This document shows positions 7,169 through 23,648 of a DNA stretch of 23,845 nt, one piece after another. This DNA is from a virus. The stretch is from IMG/VR virus record IMGVR_UViG_3300046167_000574, positions 1 to 23,845 of that record; one strand, 5' to 3'. The first letter of the stretch is position 1. Each line of letters begins with the position of its first letter. Made by a program: the position numbers and the translations under genes. The notes under the pieces are model-generated. The model made no database searches, was not told the origin of the DNA, and worked only from the letters and a program-made list of their open reading frames with translations.

Positions 7169-7677
7169 AGACTTTAGAGAGGTAAAGCGTCGTGGCGGTA
7201 TCTACACAGAGTTTACTGTCGACGGCCTCAGCGCTATAGAAAAAGAGTTTATGAGAATGGAGAAGGAGCTTCGTACTCAGGAAGGTAAAAACGCCATGAC
7301 CTCCACCATGAAGCCCGTCATGGCAAACGTCAAAGGCAACATCCGACGACAAGGGATTAACAGACACAGAGTCCCTGCATCGGTCAGGGAGAATCACCAA
7401 TGGACATGTGAAGCCGCAAGACTTGGTCTGTGATGTCCGGTTCGGAACTGACAGGCGCGGCAGTTATAAACGTAATGCGCGAGCTACAGCGAACAAGAAA
7501 GGTGATCGCAAACCGGCATACGCTTTGCAGAACGAATTCGGAACAAAGGACAGCGCCTTCGGCCCGACAAAGGAACGACCGTTTATGCGTCCAGCATTTG
7601 ACGGTAAAGAAGTGCAGATAGCAGAGAGACTAAAACAAAGACTAAAGAATCGAATTATCAGATTCAAACTACCGTAA
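7161..7677 (+). CDS. HK97 gp10-like tail/neck protein (one frameshift)
   Basis: The protein belongs to the HK97 gp10-like family of neck/tail completion proteins. I chose ATG at 7161 (GCGGAG just upstream) rather than a TTG at 7146. The frame breaks near GGG 7353-7355; removing one G gives RRQGLTDTESLHRSGRITNG and joins both halves into about 171 aa. The signature YALQNEFGTKDS ... RPFMRPAFD near the end (the ExGT and PFxRPA motifs) is clear. It normally lies before the tail tube gene; here it is after the tail chaperones. Confidence 0.8.
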
Positions 7678-7689
7678 GAGGCTTACGAC

Positions 7690-9974
7690 ATGGCTACTTC
7701 AGTACTAAGAACGCTCGCAATACGCTTGCGGATGAACTCAGCGGCCTTTCGTAAAGACGTTGACCAGGTAGACAAGCGCTTTAGAAAAATGACGTCGAGT
7801 ATGCGTCGTAGCTCTATGCAGTTCCAGAATAGCCTGGGACAGCTAGGAGTCACGCTTGCCAGCGGCTTTGGTATGGCGGCAGTCGCTAACGCAGCAGATG
7901 AAATGACCAACCTGCGTAACAAGATGAAAGCGACATTTGAGACAAGCCGTGAAGTCGCCATAGGTATGAATCAAATACGATCAATCGCTAAGGCATCTCG
8001 CTCAGACCTATCATCAGTCGGTACGCTTTATCAGCGTATTGCAGTATCTACAAAACACCTGGGAACAACGCAAAGAGAAGTAGCAGACGTTACTGAGGTC
8101 ATCACGAACTCATTCTTGATGTCAGGCACAACGGCATCAGAAGCGGCTAACTCAGCACGCCAATTTGCCCAGGGTTTAGCCAGTTCTGCTCTTAGGGGAG
8201 ATGAGTTCAGGAGCGTCAGCGAGAATAACGTCGTACTAACAAACATGCTGGCCGATGGTCTAAACATGACGGTCGGCGAGCTTCGTAAGTTTAGTCACGA
8301 GGGCGGTCTTACCGCAGAACGTATACTACCGATACTACGTGGCGAGCTAGAGGGAACACGGGAAGCCATCTCGAATATGGACGTGACACTTTCCCAGGCT
8401 AGAACATTATTCAACAACTCCTTTACCGAAATGGTTGACCGAGTCAACTCAGCGTTTAACGTCACCAATAAACTCGCAGTTGTAATTAAAACGCTTTCGG
8501 AAAACATACACATCGTAACCGTTGCCGCAGCAGGGTTAGCCAGCGTATTGATGGTCAACGTGGTTCGAGGGTTTCTCGCTTGGATTGCTGTGTCTACTTT
8601 CACAACTGTCACGGCGATTGGCGGCTTACTTAGCGCTGTCATTGGCTTAACGTCATTCTTAGTTCGCGGCTTTGTAGCCGGGTTAGCCGCAGCAACCAGC
8701 GCGATTGTTAGGTTTAGCATAGCGCTATTGGCTAACCCAATCGGCCTGATTGTGACCGGAGTTGTAGCGCTTGGCGCTGCTTTGGTTTACGCACAGGAAC
8801 GCTTTGCCATACTTGAAAACGGGCTGGCGCTCTTTGACAAGATGAAGACGATTGTGGGTGCCACAGTCGATGTCATAAAAGCTGAGTTTGAAAAAGCGCT
8901 TTTGAACATCGAAATCTTCTTTGCAGGTATTCGCAAGAAAATCGCCGACGTGCTGTTTGATCTAGGCGCGGACACTCTTGCCAACGGTATCCTGCCGGAT
9001 GAAGGCGTTGGCGTACTTGTCGCTCGAATGAACAGCGTAGCTGCTGCGTCAGAGGCCGCTAGTGCTCGCATGAAAGCAGCCTTTGCTGAGCCTTTCACTG
9101 TTATAAGTGGCGACGACGGTGCTTCTCCAGTTGACGCTATCAAAAACAAAGTAGCAGAAATGATGTCAGCTTTAGGTGTGGGCGATGAGGGCGAAGGCGG
9201 CGGCATGGGCGGTATGTTCACTGGCATTGTTGAGAGCTTCAACTCAATGGGCGATACCGTCATGACCAAGATGGCCGAGATGTTCCCCGGCCTAGTCAAG
9301 TTCTGGCAAGTGCTTAAAGGGGGCAACCCTGACCCAGTTGAGGCAGAAGCCGGAGCCGCAGAAGACGGTCCCATGTCGTGGGCTGAAAAATGGCAACTAG
9401 CACTTGAGAAGTTTCGGAGAAGCTTGGCAGTCGCTCAAGACAGGAGCTGGTGGTGCTATCGACAAGCTGAAAGAAAAGTATCGATCGCTTGATGACGTGC
9501 TGATGGCTGGAGCGCAGAAGTCTAAAAAGATTCGCTGCAATTCGCCGGGCTATCTTGCTGAAAGAAGCAATCATGCAAGGAAAGGCCTGCGATACTTAAA
9601 GCCTGGAACAGTGCTCCATTCCCCGCAAACCTGCCCTGGCGTTCTCATGAACCACAGCGCAGACCGGCTTGGTTATACGAGACATCATGAAAGGCCAGGC
9701 ACACGACGGCATGGATTCGTTACCGTCTACAGGTACATACATGCTTGAGAAAGGTGAGCGTGTTCTGTCGACTAGAGCTAACCGTGATCTGACAAGTTTC
9801 CTAGCTAATAATAACCAAGGTAGTAAAATGAAAGGGCCAGAGAGTGTCACGCTACAAGTTAACGGCGTGTCTGACCCAGACCTAGTGGTCAATGCTCTTG
9901 CTTCACGTAGGGGTGAGCTGGAAGCAATGATCCGGTCGATAAGCGCAGAGAATGTGCGCGTAGCCCCTTTCTAG
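7690..9974 (+). CDS. Tail tape measure protein (several frameshifts near the 3' end)
   Basis: The tape measure sets tail length and is ejected with the DNA. The N-terminal part shows the tape-measure N-terminal domain: SSVGTLYQRIAVSTKHLG, the GDEFRSVSENN block and LRKFSHEGGLTAERIL. Hydrophobic helices lie in roughly residues 275-365 (codons around 8510-8785). The continuous frame runs to 9492. After that, single extra bases near 9409, 9535, 9586, 9634 and 9650 must be removed to keep the frame. The restored end reads ALESFGEAWQSLKTGAG, KAWNSAPFPANLPGVLM TTAQTGLV and GQAHDGMDSLPSTGTYMLEKGERV, a typical tape-measure C-terminus. Predicted length is about 759 aa, which implies a moderately short tail. 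Confidence 0.9.
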
Positions 9975-9983
9975 GAGTAGAAA

Positions 9984-10556
9984 ATGATCACAATACCTAA
10001 CAGTGTTAGTACGGCGTTAGCGGCCAGCACCTACAGGACTTCACTGCTGGTGCATCTTCCTGGAGTTGGTTTCAAAATCACCGACAACCACAAGCCTATT
10101 ACCTACAACTCTACGACCTATACGACGTCTGACGAGATTGTATTGAAGACCAGCAACGTCAACAGGACAACAGACTATAGCAGCTAATAGCTACACGCTA
10201 ACTTTTGCTGGCGCAGACAAATCGGCATACCAGGAATACACCAATAGCGGTACTGACTACGTTAGGCACGTCGGCAAGACAGGCACTCTCTACCTCGCGT
10301 TTCTCGATGACAACTACGAGTTGTTGGATTCTGGAAGCGTCATAGAGCTGTATACCGGCGTAGTTCGATACCTGGGAGCTCAATGAGACAGCAACGACTA
10401 GTGAGTTCTCAGTCAAGTTATCAAGCCACTGGGCCACCGTTTGAAGTGACCAACGGTCGCTATACGAACAGCAGCAGTCAGCAGGAGTACTACGCAGGAG
10501 ACGAGATCTTCAAGTACTCCCATCAAGAGAAATTACCGATTAAATGGGGTAGCTAG
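9984..10556 (+). CDS. Tail tip adaptor / minor tail protein, DUF2163-like (three frameshifts)
   Basis: The reconstructed product has about 189 aa and lies between the tape measure and the J-like tip protein, where lambda L-like hub adaptors are found. The frame breaks at about 10175-10182, at GGG 10374-10376 and at GGG 10431-10433, each needing loss of one base. The restored text contains YRTSLLVHLPG, NSYTLTFAGADKSAYQEY, VVRYLELNETATTSEF and SSHWPPFEVTNGRYTN, ending SHQEKLPIKWGS. The assignment rests on the pattern of the end region (SQQxYYAGDxxF ... WG) and on position; I have not matched it to a database. No cysteine cluster like that of lambda gpL is visible. Confidence 0.62.
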
Positions 10557-20643: not shown

Positions 20644-21192
20644 TGGCTACTTATACATTCCAAAATGGGGACGGACCTTATCAGCTTTTCCCTACAAGCA
20701 TCGAGCCTGAAAGCTTCGAGATAAGACATCCACGGAGAACGCTCGTAGCTGACTCCAGAAGTATGCGTCGTCAGTCGCGCTCGATCGGCGGTGTTCGCAT
20801 TGAGGCGACGTTTAAGTTTCCTCCAATGCACAAAGACGAGTACGGCACTTTTCGCTGCGTTCTTTCGACTCATAGATGGTCGGCATACAGTTTTCGCTAT
20901 GCGTTGGCCGTCTGTTCGCGACGACAGCAGTTACACGACAACTGTTTAAAGATCGGTGAGTACTACAACCGCAACAGCAGCACCTTAAATAATCAGCTGA
21001 TGCAGTATGTGGGACTTAGCGGCGTGACCCTATCACCGATCCCCCCGGCGCGAGACACTGGCTACTGTGTCGTTAAGCCTACCGAATCTACCTTCCCACT
21101 CTAAGTGCTCACTTAACACAGACACGCCGACGATCGAATACGGATCGGACGGCTTCATTCGCTACAGCATGGACATAATCGAACGATGGTAA
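20643..21192 (+). CDS. Unidentified phage protein, about 182 aa (frameshifted)
   Basis: The open frame stops at 21104, but the bases after it, read in another frame, give NTDTPTIEYGSDGFIRYSMDIIERW and a stop at 21190-21192 that overlaps the lysozyme start (ATGGTAA). That end resembles tail-associated proteins ending in xYSxDIxERW. A frame change at about 20906-20909 would restore FRYALPSVRDDSSYTTT. At least one more pair of indels lies between 20950 and 21110, and I cannot place them. The beginning (IRHPRRTLVADSRSMRRQSRSIGG, FKFPPMHKDEY) is basic and intact. AAAGGAGAG precedes ATG. Function is unknown; a tail-tip or assembly role is possible from the C-terminal pattern. Confidence 0.62.
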
Positions 21193-21608
21193 AATTCAAA
21201 CAGATTGCATTAGAGCAGCTTAAAACACGACGAGGGTCTACGCTTTTTCCCTACCAATGTAGCGCTGACAAGCTGACCATTGGCTACGGCAGAAATATCC
21301 AGGATAACGGCATCTCTGAGTTTGAAGCTGAGCAGATGTTGCTAAGCGACACACAAGTAGCATTAGAAGACGCTAAGAAGTTTGTTGGCGCAGCTACTTG
21401 GGAAGAGCTTAGTGATGTGCGTCAGGCTTGCTTGATCAATATGGCCTTTAACCTGGGGCTACCTACTCTTAAAAAGTTTGAGTTGTTTAAAAAGGCTCTA
21501 CAAGAAGGGGATATGGTTGAGGCCAGCTCGCAAATGTTAGATAGCCGATGGGCTAGACAGGTCGGCCAGCGCGCAAACAGGTTGGCCCATTTGATACAGC
21601 AGGGTTAA
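21186..21608 (+). CDS. Endolysin, T4-type lysozyme (GH24)
   Basis: This muramidase of about 140 aa would break the peptidoglycan at lysis. LTIGYGRNIQDNGISEFEAEQML and QACLINMAFNLGLPTLKKF are classic GH24 motifs, and the C-terminal SRWARQVGQRANRLAHLI is also typical. As read, the N-terminus gives LKTRRGSTLFPYQC, which lacks the catalytic Glu. Removing one A from AAAA at 21222-21225 and adding one T to TTTTT at 21244-21248 gives LKHDEGLRFFPYQC, with the expected EG motif. So the gene is probably intact and the sequence carries a compensating indel pair. No signal peptide or SAR anchor is seen, so a holin would be needed. Confidence 0.93.
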   Translation: MVKFKQIALEQLKTRRGSTLFPYQCSADKLTIGYGRNIQDNGISEFEAEQMLLSDTQVALEDAKKFVGAATWEELSDVRQACLINMAFNLGLPTLKKFELFKKALQEGDMVEASSQMLDSRWARQVGQRANRLAHLIQQG

Positions 21609-21633
21609 CTATAGTGTATCCCTATAGTATAGT
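21605..21633 (+). promoter_or_regulatory. Sigma70-type promoter for the small ORF and Cro-like gene
   Basis: TTAACT (21605-21610), a 17-base spacer and TATAGT (21628-21633) match bacterial -35/-10 elements well. The -35 overlaps the lysozyme stop codon. ACTATAGT (21608-21615), a perfect palindrome overlapping the -35 and spacer, could be an operator. Confidence 0.65.
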
Positions 21634-21656: not shown

Positions 21657-21860
21657 ATGAGCACATTAAGCAGCTTTGCCCGTATGTTACGCAAACACGA
21701 TTGGTACTATGACTACTCTGATGACCATCGTGCGTGGTGTAAAGGCCGGGATAACTGGAACAGAATTCAACAAACAAAAGCAAAGATCAACGAGATGGGA
21801 GAGCACAAAGCCCAACTCGGAGATGCGCTATTTCTAAAATACAAACCAGAGCAACTATAA
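21657..21860 (+). CDS. Small conserved-looking phage protein, unknown function
   Basis: The 67-aa product is basic and aromatic-rich at the start (MLRKHDWYYDYSDDHRAWCKGRDNW), then helical and charged. TGAGGAGGA, about 7 bases before ATG, is a strong binding site, and a good promoter lies 24 bp upstream of the gene. It ends 1 bp before the Cro-like gene and is very likely cotranscribed with it. I recognise no family. Its place at the lysogeny end suggests an early or regulatory role. Confidence 0.68.
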   Translation: MSTLSSFARMLRKHDWYYDYSDDHRAWCKGRDNWNRIQQTKAKINEMGEHKAQLGDALFLKYKPEQL

Positions 21861-21861
21861 G

Positions 21862-22095
21862 ATGGAAGCCATTGACGCGCTAAAACTATTAGAGGAAAAA
21901 GCCGGAGGACCACTTAAGTGTTCGCGGTTGTTGTCCGTTGATTACACAGGAAGCTATGCGGCTTGGAAGTCAGGGAGGAAACCCATCCCTAGGTACATTC
22001 ACGCCTCTATTGCCGCACACCTTGATGTGTTGGAGCGGGAAACCGGGTTCGAACCGGCGACCTATACCTTGGCAAGGTATCGCTCTACCAACTGA
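21862..22095 (+). CDS. Cro-like HTH protein whose 3' end overlaps the antisense tRNA-Gly
   Basis: The 77-aa product has a predicted helix-turn-helix: a DALKLLEEKAGG helix, KCSRLLSVD, and SYAAWKSGRKPIPRYIHASIAAHLDVL, the common pattern of small Cro/CI-type DNA-binding proteins. The last 19-20 residues (RETGFEPATYTLARYRSTN) are the reverse complement of the tRNA. These are well known as spurious peptides made by tRNA antisense reading, and here the ORF truly runs into the tRNA. Crossing over at the anticodon would change only these last residues. A genuine start at 21862 without a strong binding site suggests coupling to the upstream ORF. It may oppose the minus-strand HTH regulator. Confidence 0.65.
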   Translation: MEAIDALKLLEEKAGGPLKCSRLLSVDYTGSYAAWKSGRKPIPRYIHASIAAHLDVLERETGFEPATYTLARYRSTN

Positions 22096-22106
22096 GCTAT
22101 TCCCGC
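22031..22106 (-). tRNA. tRNA-Gly (anticodon GCC), complete with encoded CCA
   Basis: Read on the minus strand, all arms of the cloverleaf are present. The acceptor stem pairs GCGGGAA with TTCCCGC and is followed by T and CCA. The D arm pairs GCTC with GAGC. The anticodon stem pairs ATACC with GGTAT around the loop TTGCCAA. The variable loop has 5 bases, and the T arm pairs GCCGG with CCGGT around TTCGAAC. Total length is 76 nt. Overall similarity is to gamma/betaproteobacterial tRNA-Gly. It stands alone beside the integrase, so it is probably the attachment target copy or a phage-carried tRNA. Confidence 0.96.
22065..22079. repeat. 15-bp att core candidate, copy 1 (anticodon arm of tRNA-Gly)
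   Basis: TACCTTGGCAAGGTA is nearly the whole anticodon stem and loop and is itself an inverted repeat (7+1+7). An identical copy lies at 22234. Tyrosine recombinases often use the symmetric anticodon arm as the core. Confidence 0.7.
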
Positions 22107-22143
22107 AGTGTTTCACTGTAGTTCTGCATCTTTGCCTGGCGAG

Positions 22144-22230
22144 TGTGTACGCATCGTGTACCGTACAAACCAGGCGTTTTAACCTCAACAACCTACCGCT
22201 ATGCCTAGCTTTGTAGATAGATTGTGTACC
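22144..22230. repeat. TGTGTAC(C) repeats, candidate integrase arm-type sites
   Basis: TGTGTAC at 22144, CGTGTACC at 22155 and TGTGTACC at 22223 are in the same orientation. The integrase has an N-terminal part that looks like an arm-binding domain. Their function is inferred from position only. Confidence 0.4.
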
Positions 22231-22233
22231 TGC

Positions 22234-22248
22234 TACCTTGGCAAGGTA
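22234..22248. repeat. 15-bp att core candidate, copy 2 (next to the integrase stop)
   Basis: This is an identical TACCTTGGCAAGGTA, 16 bp from the integrase stop codon and outside any tRNA. Identity ends at both edges. It is either a real attP core or the remnant of an older att duplication. Confidence 0.65.
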
Positions 22249-22264
22249 ACAAGCACAACCCTAC

Positions 22265-23331
22265 CTATATCGAAACACTGTAGTCTACATCAAAGAATTT
22301 ACGGTCGTGTCCCACTAGATACAGCTCCGTAGTGGACTCGTCTGTGTGAGCCATTATCTTACTAATGGTTTCACCAGGAGCGCCCATAAGTTCTAAGTTA
22401 GCTGCCGCTAAAGAGCGTATCTCGTGGAACGTCGGGTGGTCGTCTGCTCTGATCAACTCCCTCATACATTCAGTAAACTGCTTACTGATCATGTCAGGCG
22501 TCATTTGGCAGACGTGCTCTTTCGTTTTACCGCGACGGTTAGCGCCGAAGTGTGACAACACAAACGGACAGTCTCTGTTCATCATAGCTAGTCGACGACA
22601 TTCCTTGAGCTCATGTAGTAGCTGGGGGTGTTTCTGCAAATCCCACCTTAGCCTGGTCGCTTCGACCTCTCCCCTAGAGGCTATGCTCTTACTTACTGAT
22701 ACATACAGTGAGCCATCTCTAATATCATCCCACCGTAACTCAGCTAAATCGCCACGCCTCAGTGTAGTAAGTAGTGATAGCTGACAAGGCCTGTACGAGG
22801 CCGTCATAGCCTTTGTCGGTAGCAACACGTAGCACCCCATCAAACATACCCTTAGTCAGTCTCTGTCTTTTCTTTTTAGGCAAGCCTTCTTATCTAGTAG
22901 TTCTATAGGATTCGCCGGTAGCACTATAAGCCCTGACAACATACACCACTTAATGAAGCGATTAAGCTCTGGCCGTAGGTTGTCTTGTTGGTGCCTGGTT
23001 AGTGTGTCCCAGTAGTCTAAGAAGTGCGTCATCGACACCGTGGTCGGCTTACACATGCTTTCAAAAACGTCAGCAAACTTACGCAGCACGTATTACTGCC
23101 CCGCCATTTTTGCTTTGTTAAAAGATCAGGAGAGCCACCCTCTCTCCTAACCAGGTGACGATTGACTAGCTCGAGCCACGCTCCGGGCGGCGCTTTGAAC
23201 TGTGACACAGCGGCTTCAGCAGCAAAGACAGCTTGTGTCTCACTAGCCGCTGTTATCGTCTTGTAGCTACCGTTAGGTAATTTGACCCGCCACTTATTAG
23301 GCCGACCTTTTGGATCTGAGTAGATCTTCAT
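22265..23331 (-). CDS. int: Tyrosine-type integrase (frameshifted)
   Basis: This enzyme would recombine attP with the host attB for integration and, with helpers, excision. Three frame pieces (23331-23029, 23089-22856, 22843-22265) join into about 355 aa if single-base changes near 23085, 22860 and 22775 are allowed. The junctions then read KRKDRDLTKGMFDGVLRVATD and VQALSASLLTTLRRGDL. The N-terminus (NKWRVKLPNGSYKTITAASETQA) looks like an AP2-like arm-binding domain. The middle is a SAM-like core-binding domain (MTHFLDYWDTLTRHQQ). The catalytic part shows R in TTLRRGDL, HEIR (HxxR), H in MAHTDES and the nucleophile Tyr in TTELYLV (22319-22321). ATG overlaps the end of the regulator gene (ATGA). 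Some of these indels look like deletions, unlike most others in the window. Confidence 0.92.
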
Positions 23332-23648
23332 AGCAAGTCGCGATTGGAGTTCTTCCCGTAGATCGCTTTAAAGTAGTCGTCTGTTTCGTAGAACCGGACG
23401 CACTCTTTAGCAAAAGCTTGGGTGTCTACACCGAGCACTCTAGCCCATAGCTCGGTATCGTCTGGTGGTATTCGTACTCGACCGTTCTCAATTTGAGAGA
23501 CCATTGTGAAGTACTTCTGACCCACTAGCCTAGCTAGATCGTGTTGTGTTAGTTGTGCGGCCTGTCGGAGTGACTGTAGTACTCGACCAAACTCGACACG
23601 TTTTCCTAAATCTGCTCTTGCGTTTTTAGGACGCTTATCTGCATTCAT
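23328..23648 (-). CDS. XRE-family HTH regulator, probable lysogeny control protein
   Basis: The 106-aa product has a basic N-terminus and a Cro/CI-type HTH at about residues 22-75: FGRVLQSLRQAAQLTQHDLARLVGQK, then YFTMVSQIENGRVRIPPDDTELWARVLGV. The remaining 30 residues lack a peptidase (LexA/S24) domain, so this is a short repressor or an operon regulator rather than a RecA-cleavable CI. It overlaps integrase by 4 bases, so both are translated together. GGGAGAGA lies about 11 bases before ATG. It could bind the ACTATAGT-like sites near 19986, 21608, 22115, 22277 and 23573; this is only an inference. Confidence 0.85.
   Translation of the reverse strand: MNADKRPKNARADLGKRVEFGRVLQSLRQAAQLTQHDLARLVGQKYFTMVSQIENGRVRIPPDDTELWARVLGVDTQAFAKECVRFYETDDYFKAIYGKNSNRDLL

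Follow-up and report, generated by a model that had tools for sequence, protein, structure and literature searches.

Predicted tRNA-dependent lysogeny in a siphovirus family with a complete tRNA-Gly(GCC) beside a short attachment core

The right end of a 23.8-kb IMG/VR virus record (the window, i.e., the whole stretch of 23,845 nucleotides analysed) is very probably where a temperate siphovirus with tRNA-dependent lysogeny has its attachment region. The tyrosine integrase of this phage would recombine a 13-15 bp core (22234-22248) with the anticodon stem-loop, identical in sequence, of a tRNA-Gly(GCC) gene of its host. The host gene, according to simulated integration, would be cut in two and not rebuilt, because attP holds nothing of the 3' half of the tRNA past the anticodon stem, and the missing tRNA would be supplied by a complete phage-borne tRNA-Gly located 169 bp away. 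The window encodes a terminase large subunit, a head protease, a tape measure protein, a tail fibre, an endolysin, an HTH regulator and the tyrosine integrase; the tRNA-Gly is placed at the right end, with the endolysin region on one side and the integrase on the other.

tRNA-dependent lysogeny was described, mainly in actinobacteriophages, as integration at cores of 8-17 bp in which the host tRNA is not rebuilt and the phage carries a tRNA of the same isotype (Guerrero-Bustamante and Hatfull, 2024, mBio; PMC10865867). Genetic studies in those phages evidenced that viable lysogens are lost without the phage tRNA, the Lactobacillus prophage Lj965 was named as a possible case outside Actinobacteria, and the discoverers asked how prevalent the mechanism is outside actinobacteriophages (PMC10865867). 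In the phage studied here the tyrosine integrase adjoins attP, the short core (15 bp in the window, 13 bp invariant) is identical to host tRNA-Gly anticodon arms, the presumed host site, and a complete phage tRNA of the same isotype is present. As all features that can be tested in a sequence match, this conserved phage family, which recurs in the environment and probably infects gammaproteobacteria, is predicted to be a new member of the tRNA-dependent lysogeny systems.

ARAGORN detected a single tRNA in the whole window, a tRNA-Gly(GCC) with encoded CCA at 22031-22106 (minus strand), which scored 71.5 bits (E 1.9e-15) against Rfam RF00005 and is the predicted replacement tRNA. Its anticodon arm (22065-22079, minus strand) has the letters of the predicted attP core (22234-22248, minus strand), which comprises the anticodon stem-loop only and contains the invariant 13 bp ACCTTGCCAAGGT at 22235-22247. 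The 15-bp sequence TACCTTGGCAAGGTA is present in exactly two copies, directly repeated and 169 bp apart from start to start, and a gap of 16 bp separates the second copy from the integrase stop, which ends at 22265. The initial annotation had read a full 76-nt tRNA-Gly(GCC) with CCA and an exact 15-bp copy of its anticodon arm at these distances, and both observations are confirmed. In 100 shuffles, with up to two mismatches allowed, 0.04 matches were expected and none reached the four observed, which represent the two sites, each matched on both strands. The core is a palindrome apart from its central base, and its orientation rests on that base because all the others are palindromic. Being a near-perfect inverted repeat, the copy near the integrase stop could be taken for a chance occurrence or a regulatory palindrome (operator or terminator) instead of an attachment core; this reading deserves almost no credence, as the exact match to the tRNA far exceeds chance expectation, all relatives keep the orientation and the asymmetric base at the centre, and a terminator-like site was not found at the copy. 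A 77-aa ORF (21862-22095, plus strand), conserved in the relatives and without a family match, runs with its 3' end antisense through the tRNA.

A scan of IMG/VR with the integrase fragment retrieved 17 contigs with relatives, and a second scan, with an alignment, gave the same contigs; as several of the contigs are near-identical, they represent about seven lineages and not 17 independent cases. Their full-length integrases are 67-97% identical to that of one relative, L003. The core copy beside the integrase was found at the same place in 17/17 relatives, and a whole tRNA-Gly(GCC) follows it in the same orientation in all 16 whose contig reaches that far, the exception being L015 (5558), which ends 28 bp past the core. 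Both core copies point the same way in the 16 relatives holding both, and the core-to-core spacing in the relatives is 166-184 bp. The relatives have ACCTTGCCAAGGT (13 bp) as their common core, and only some of them share the outer T and A with the window. The phage tRNAs differ from each other by compensatory pairs (27-43 A-T, G-C or C-G; 28-42 T-A or C-G) and by changes in the T-stem, as expected if the phage tRNA is functional. The core beside the integrase keeps its 13 bp where the outer anticodon stem of the phage tRNA changes, which marks it as a separate site under selection rather than a recently made duplicate.

Phages often carry tRNAs, and GGC and GGT, which are read by tRNA-Gly(GCC), are the commonest glycine codons of the phage (191 and 115 of 439 in seven long ORFs), so the tRNA-Gly could be an ordinary phage tRNA that boosts translation during lytic growth or evades tRNA-cutting defences, its place by attP being a relic of imprecise excision. 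This explanation appears very improbable given that it is the sole tRNA found, that its isotype is that of the core and that all relatives keep it in this position and orientation. The 40.7-kb and 33.3-kb records likewise contain no tRNA other than the tRNA-Gly.

In the alignment of the relatives, the spacer between the integrase stop and the tRNA is otherwise saturated, with few invariant islands: GTTGT to the left of the core, ACCTTGCCAAGGT, GCA.GTACACA, TGT.CGGTACAC, a second G.GTACAC 11 bp further on, and TACAG before the tRNA. These islands may correspond to the attP core plus arm-type integrase sites. The first candidate arm-type site, GGTACAC at 22224-22230 (minus strand), lies by the core within GCANGTACACA, which is conserved in the alignment; the others form the paired direct repeat GGTACAC/CGTACAC, 11 bp apart, at 22145-22162 (minus strand), which appears as TGT.CGGTACAC..G.GTACAC in all relatives aligned and would have the same function.

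Integration was simulated with the tRNA-Gly genes of four candidate hosts. Crossover at the copy by the integrase left no tRNA-Gly at the integrase junction and exactly one intact tRNA-Gly, the phage's own, on the other side; in these hosts the tRNA was rebuilt in silico at neither junction. Identity to the tRNA ends after the anticodon stem in every relative, and attP contains no contiguous 3' part of a tRNA. The expected junctions would read as the 5' half of tRNA-Gly plus ACCTTGCCAAGGT-GCAGGTACACA, and as GGTTGT..ACCTTGCCAAGGT plus the 3' half. A simulated crossover within the phage tRNA gave instead two intact tRNAs, with which the host would keep its tRNA function as occurs with many tRNA-targeting integrases; on this basis the anticodon arm of the phage tRNA might itself be the attP core, integration regenerating two whole tRNA-Gly and the integrase-side copy being a remnant or an accessory site. 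This is unlikely, as the integrase-side copy is invariant over 13 bp in all lineages and sits among conserved repeats, unlike a decaying remnant, and the canonical relatives considered below hold the 3' part only and not a whole tRNA. The invariance of this copy between lineages with 67% identical integrases, together with the conserved repeats that flank it, likewise disfavours the proposal of the initial annotation that the core is the copy within the tRNA, the second copy being a remnant. The role that best fits the copy beside the integrase is that of the attP core.

The main reading made at the outset, that a short anticodon-arm core would split the host tRNA and that the whole tRNA-Gly of the phage would replace the lost one, gained support from conservation in the 17 relatives, from the simulated integration, from canonical relatives that use the same anticodon-loop position and from a proven precedent (PMC10865867). 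Pattern searches of viral contigs returned no attR, attL or 169-bp-deletion junctions (the attL pattern would also have matched the 169-bp deletion product), and looser half-site patterns matched in viral contigs only attP forms of the same phage family. The suggestion that two cores allow alternative excision is left without support, as no contig with the 169-bp deletion or a junction appeared.

Among the matches listed, several gammaproteobacterial MAGs of marine origin (labelled Porticoccaceae, SAR86, Legionellales and Methylococcaceae) have a tRNA-Gly identical to the phage tRNA over 76/76 positions, and each candidate host has one full-length tRNA-Gly gene at or near 100% identity. This identity is only a pointer to the host, as other bacterial groups also have the letters of the anticodon arm; on this evidence the hosts are probably gammaproteobacteria. 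A tRNA-Cys follows the tRNA-Gly in most of 120 bacterial loci listed, and of the seven listed loci with the complete identical tRNA, five lack any further tRNA in the 150 bp downstream. At loci with a following tRNA-Cys, integration would also cut this gene off from the promoter, unless the integrase transcript reads through.

A search for prophages with this integrase, also suggested at the outset, returned no close relative in GTDB contigs (none among 95 pattern matches) and no integrase match at E 1e-12 in the orders to which the candidates labelled SAR86 and Legionellales belong; in genomes of the order of the candidate host G001 it gave integrases 31-35% identical to that of L003. A first class-wide draw, which served as background only, gave distant integrases only, mostly by complete tRNAs. 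In three of these elements, prophages of related bacteria in the genomes G551, G634 and G650, the integrase adjoins a complete tRNA-Ala or tRNA-Pro, and a second tRNA copy, extending from position 32, 32 and 27, respectively, to the CCA end, lies 31-38 kb off. This arrangement is that of canonical integrators into the anticodon loop, by which the tRNA is rebuilt. They share with the studied phage a related integrase and the same anticodon-loop crossover region; however, they target tRNA-Ala or tRNA-Pro and carry a block of 45-50 bp through the CCA end that rebuilds the tRNA, whereas the studied phage keeps the anticodon stem-loop only and a whole tRNA. Over the 60 kb examined in each of the three genomes, no spare whole tRNA of the target kind was found. 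With these relatives following the usual course of tRNA rebuilding, both strategies would occur within one integrase family.

The layout was compared with three precedents of the known system. The mycobacteriophages Fionnbharth (K4), those of cluster L and Gaia share with the studied phage a tyrosine integrase, a short core in a host tRNA gene that is not rebuilt and a phage tRNA of the same isotype (PMC10865867). As in Fionnbharth, the tRNA overlaps the 3' end of an opposite-strand gene (gene 37 there, the 77-aa ORF here). In contrast, the Fionnbharth tRNA is located about 2.8 kb from the integrase on the opposite strand, has a strong promoter of its own and shares no stretch of 9 bp with the integrase region apart from one inside the integrase gene, and that of Gaia lies 286 bp past the integrase, with no 8-bp piece of the tRNA in that gap. 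The tRNA of the studied phage differs from both in that it holds the exact core, 169 bp off and co-oriented, with no evident promoter. Another proteobacterial case is provided by the prophages of Sinorhizobium meliloti that resemble the Mesorhizobium phage vB_MloP_Lo5R7ANS, in which integration in the middle of tRNA-Leu(UAG) inactivates the tRNA, whose place is taken by a phage tRNA of the same kind (PMC11476347). Lo5R7ANS also has a T7-like RNA polymerase; it differs in being a podovirus, in the tRNA-Leu and in the distance of the tRNA, about 1.4 kb past the integrase. The arrangement described here, in which the tRNA closely follows the core in the same orientation, lacks an evident sigma-70 promoter and is predicted to come to lie behind the promoter of the broken host gene, may be a new one.

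Because the phage tRNA is co-oriented with the core, integration would put it right behind the promoter and the 5' half of the host gene, in the order host promoter, 5' half of the host tRNA, core, spacer and whole phage tRNA. The phage tRNA may thus, with less certainty, be transcribed from the captured host promoter, and this orientation makes expression from that promoter a testable prediction. Between the core and the tRNA, simple consensus scans found neither a sigma-70-like promoter nor a terminator. Promoter capture would follow from the anatomy of the region, and it can be tentatively hypothesized, at somewhat less than an even chance, that this is a compact, promoter-capturing form of tRNA-dependent lysogeny in which a promoterless replacement tRNA is expressed mainly in lysogens and at the level of the host gene. 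A possible alternative to promoter capture is that the tRNA is immediately preceded by an unusual promoter or one for the phage polymerase (the ACTACAGTG motif).

Repeats of ACTACAGTG at 22114-22122 and 22276-22284 (both on the minus strand) were considered as arm sites. They belong to an ACTAYAGTG motif also present at 21609-21633 (plus strand) and followed twice by TATAG; the motif is placed before the gene at 21657, at the integrase end and just 5' of the tRNA, and it is possible that it represents a promoter of a phage T7-like RNA polymerase or an integrase arm site.

The phage tRNA, by keeping the core, could also act as attB for a second phage, its anticodon arm being a possible attB-like site within the phage; the authors of the 2024 study speculated likewise on attB-type use for their plasmids (PMC10865867). 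Two relatives, L005 and L004, are 99-100% identical over most of the stretch compared and differ in a patch of about 240 bp that starts at about the tRNA, which it covers, and reaches to 200 bp past it; in this patch L005 matches L003, and the tRNA module seems to be exchangeable between phages. In one lineage (L016, 5761-5778, minus strand) a strong terminator-like hairpin directly follows the tRNA and is oriented to block late-gene transcription from entering it.

The tyrosine integrase (22265-23331, minus strand) was recognized by PHROG integrase matches and by PF00589 in the L003 orthologue. Directly upstream, a repressor-like HTH transcriptional regulator (23328-23648, minus strand) was identified by PHROG transcriptional regulator matches and by PF13560/PF01381 in the L003 orthologue. 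The integrase of the window is split into three frames and those of the relatives are intact (353-355 aa). Single-base indels are scattered over the window in comparison with the 89-93% identical relative G489, and therefore sequencing error is the likely cause of the split integrase and of the other broken frames of this contig. The gene-breaking indels with respect to G489 map at 7356, 9412-10437, 20857-21244 and 22788-23093 of the window, affecting the integrase and a 153-aa ORF (183 aa in the relatives). In the relatives, a T7-like single-subunit RNA polymerase gene (L003 1492-4014, L011 1450-3912 and L016 1390-3861, all on the minus strand) is divergent from the repressor and the integrase, and the window ends before reaching it; a T7-like RNA polymerase together with siphovirus-type tail genes is an unusual mix for a temperate phage.
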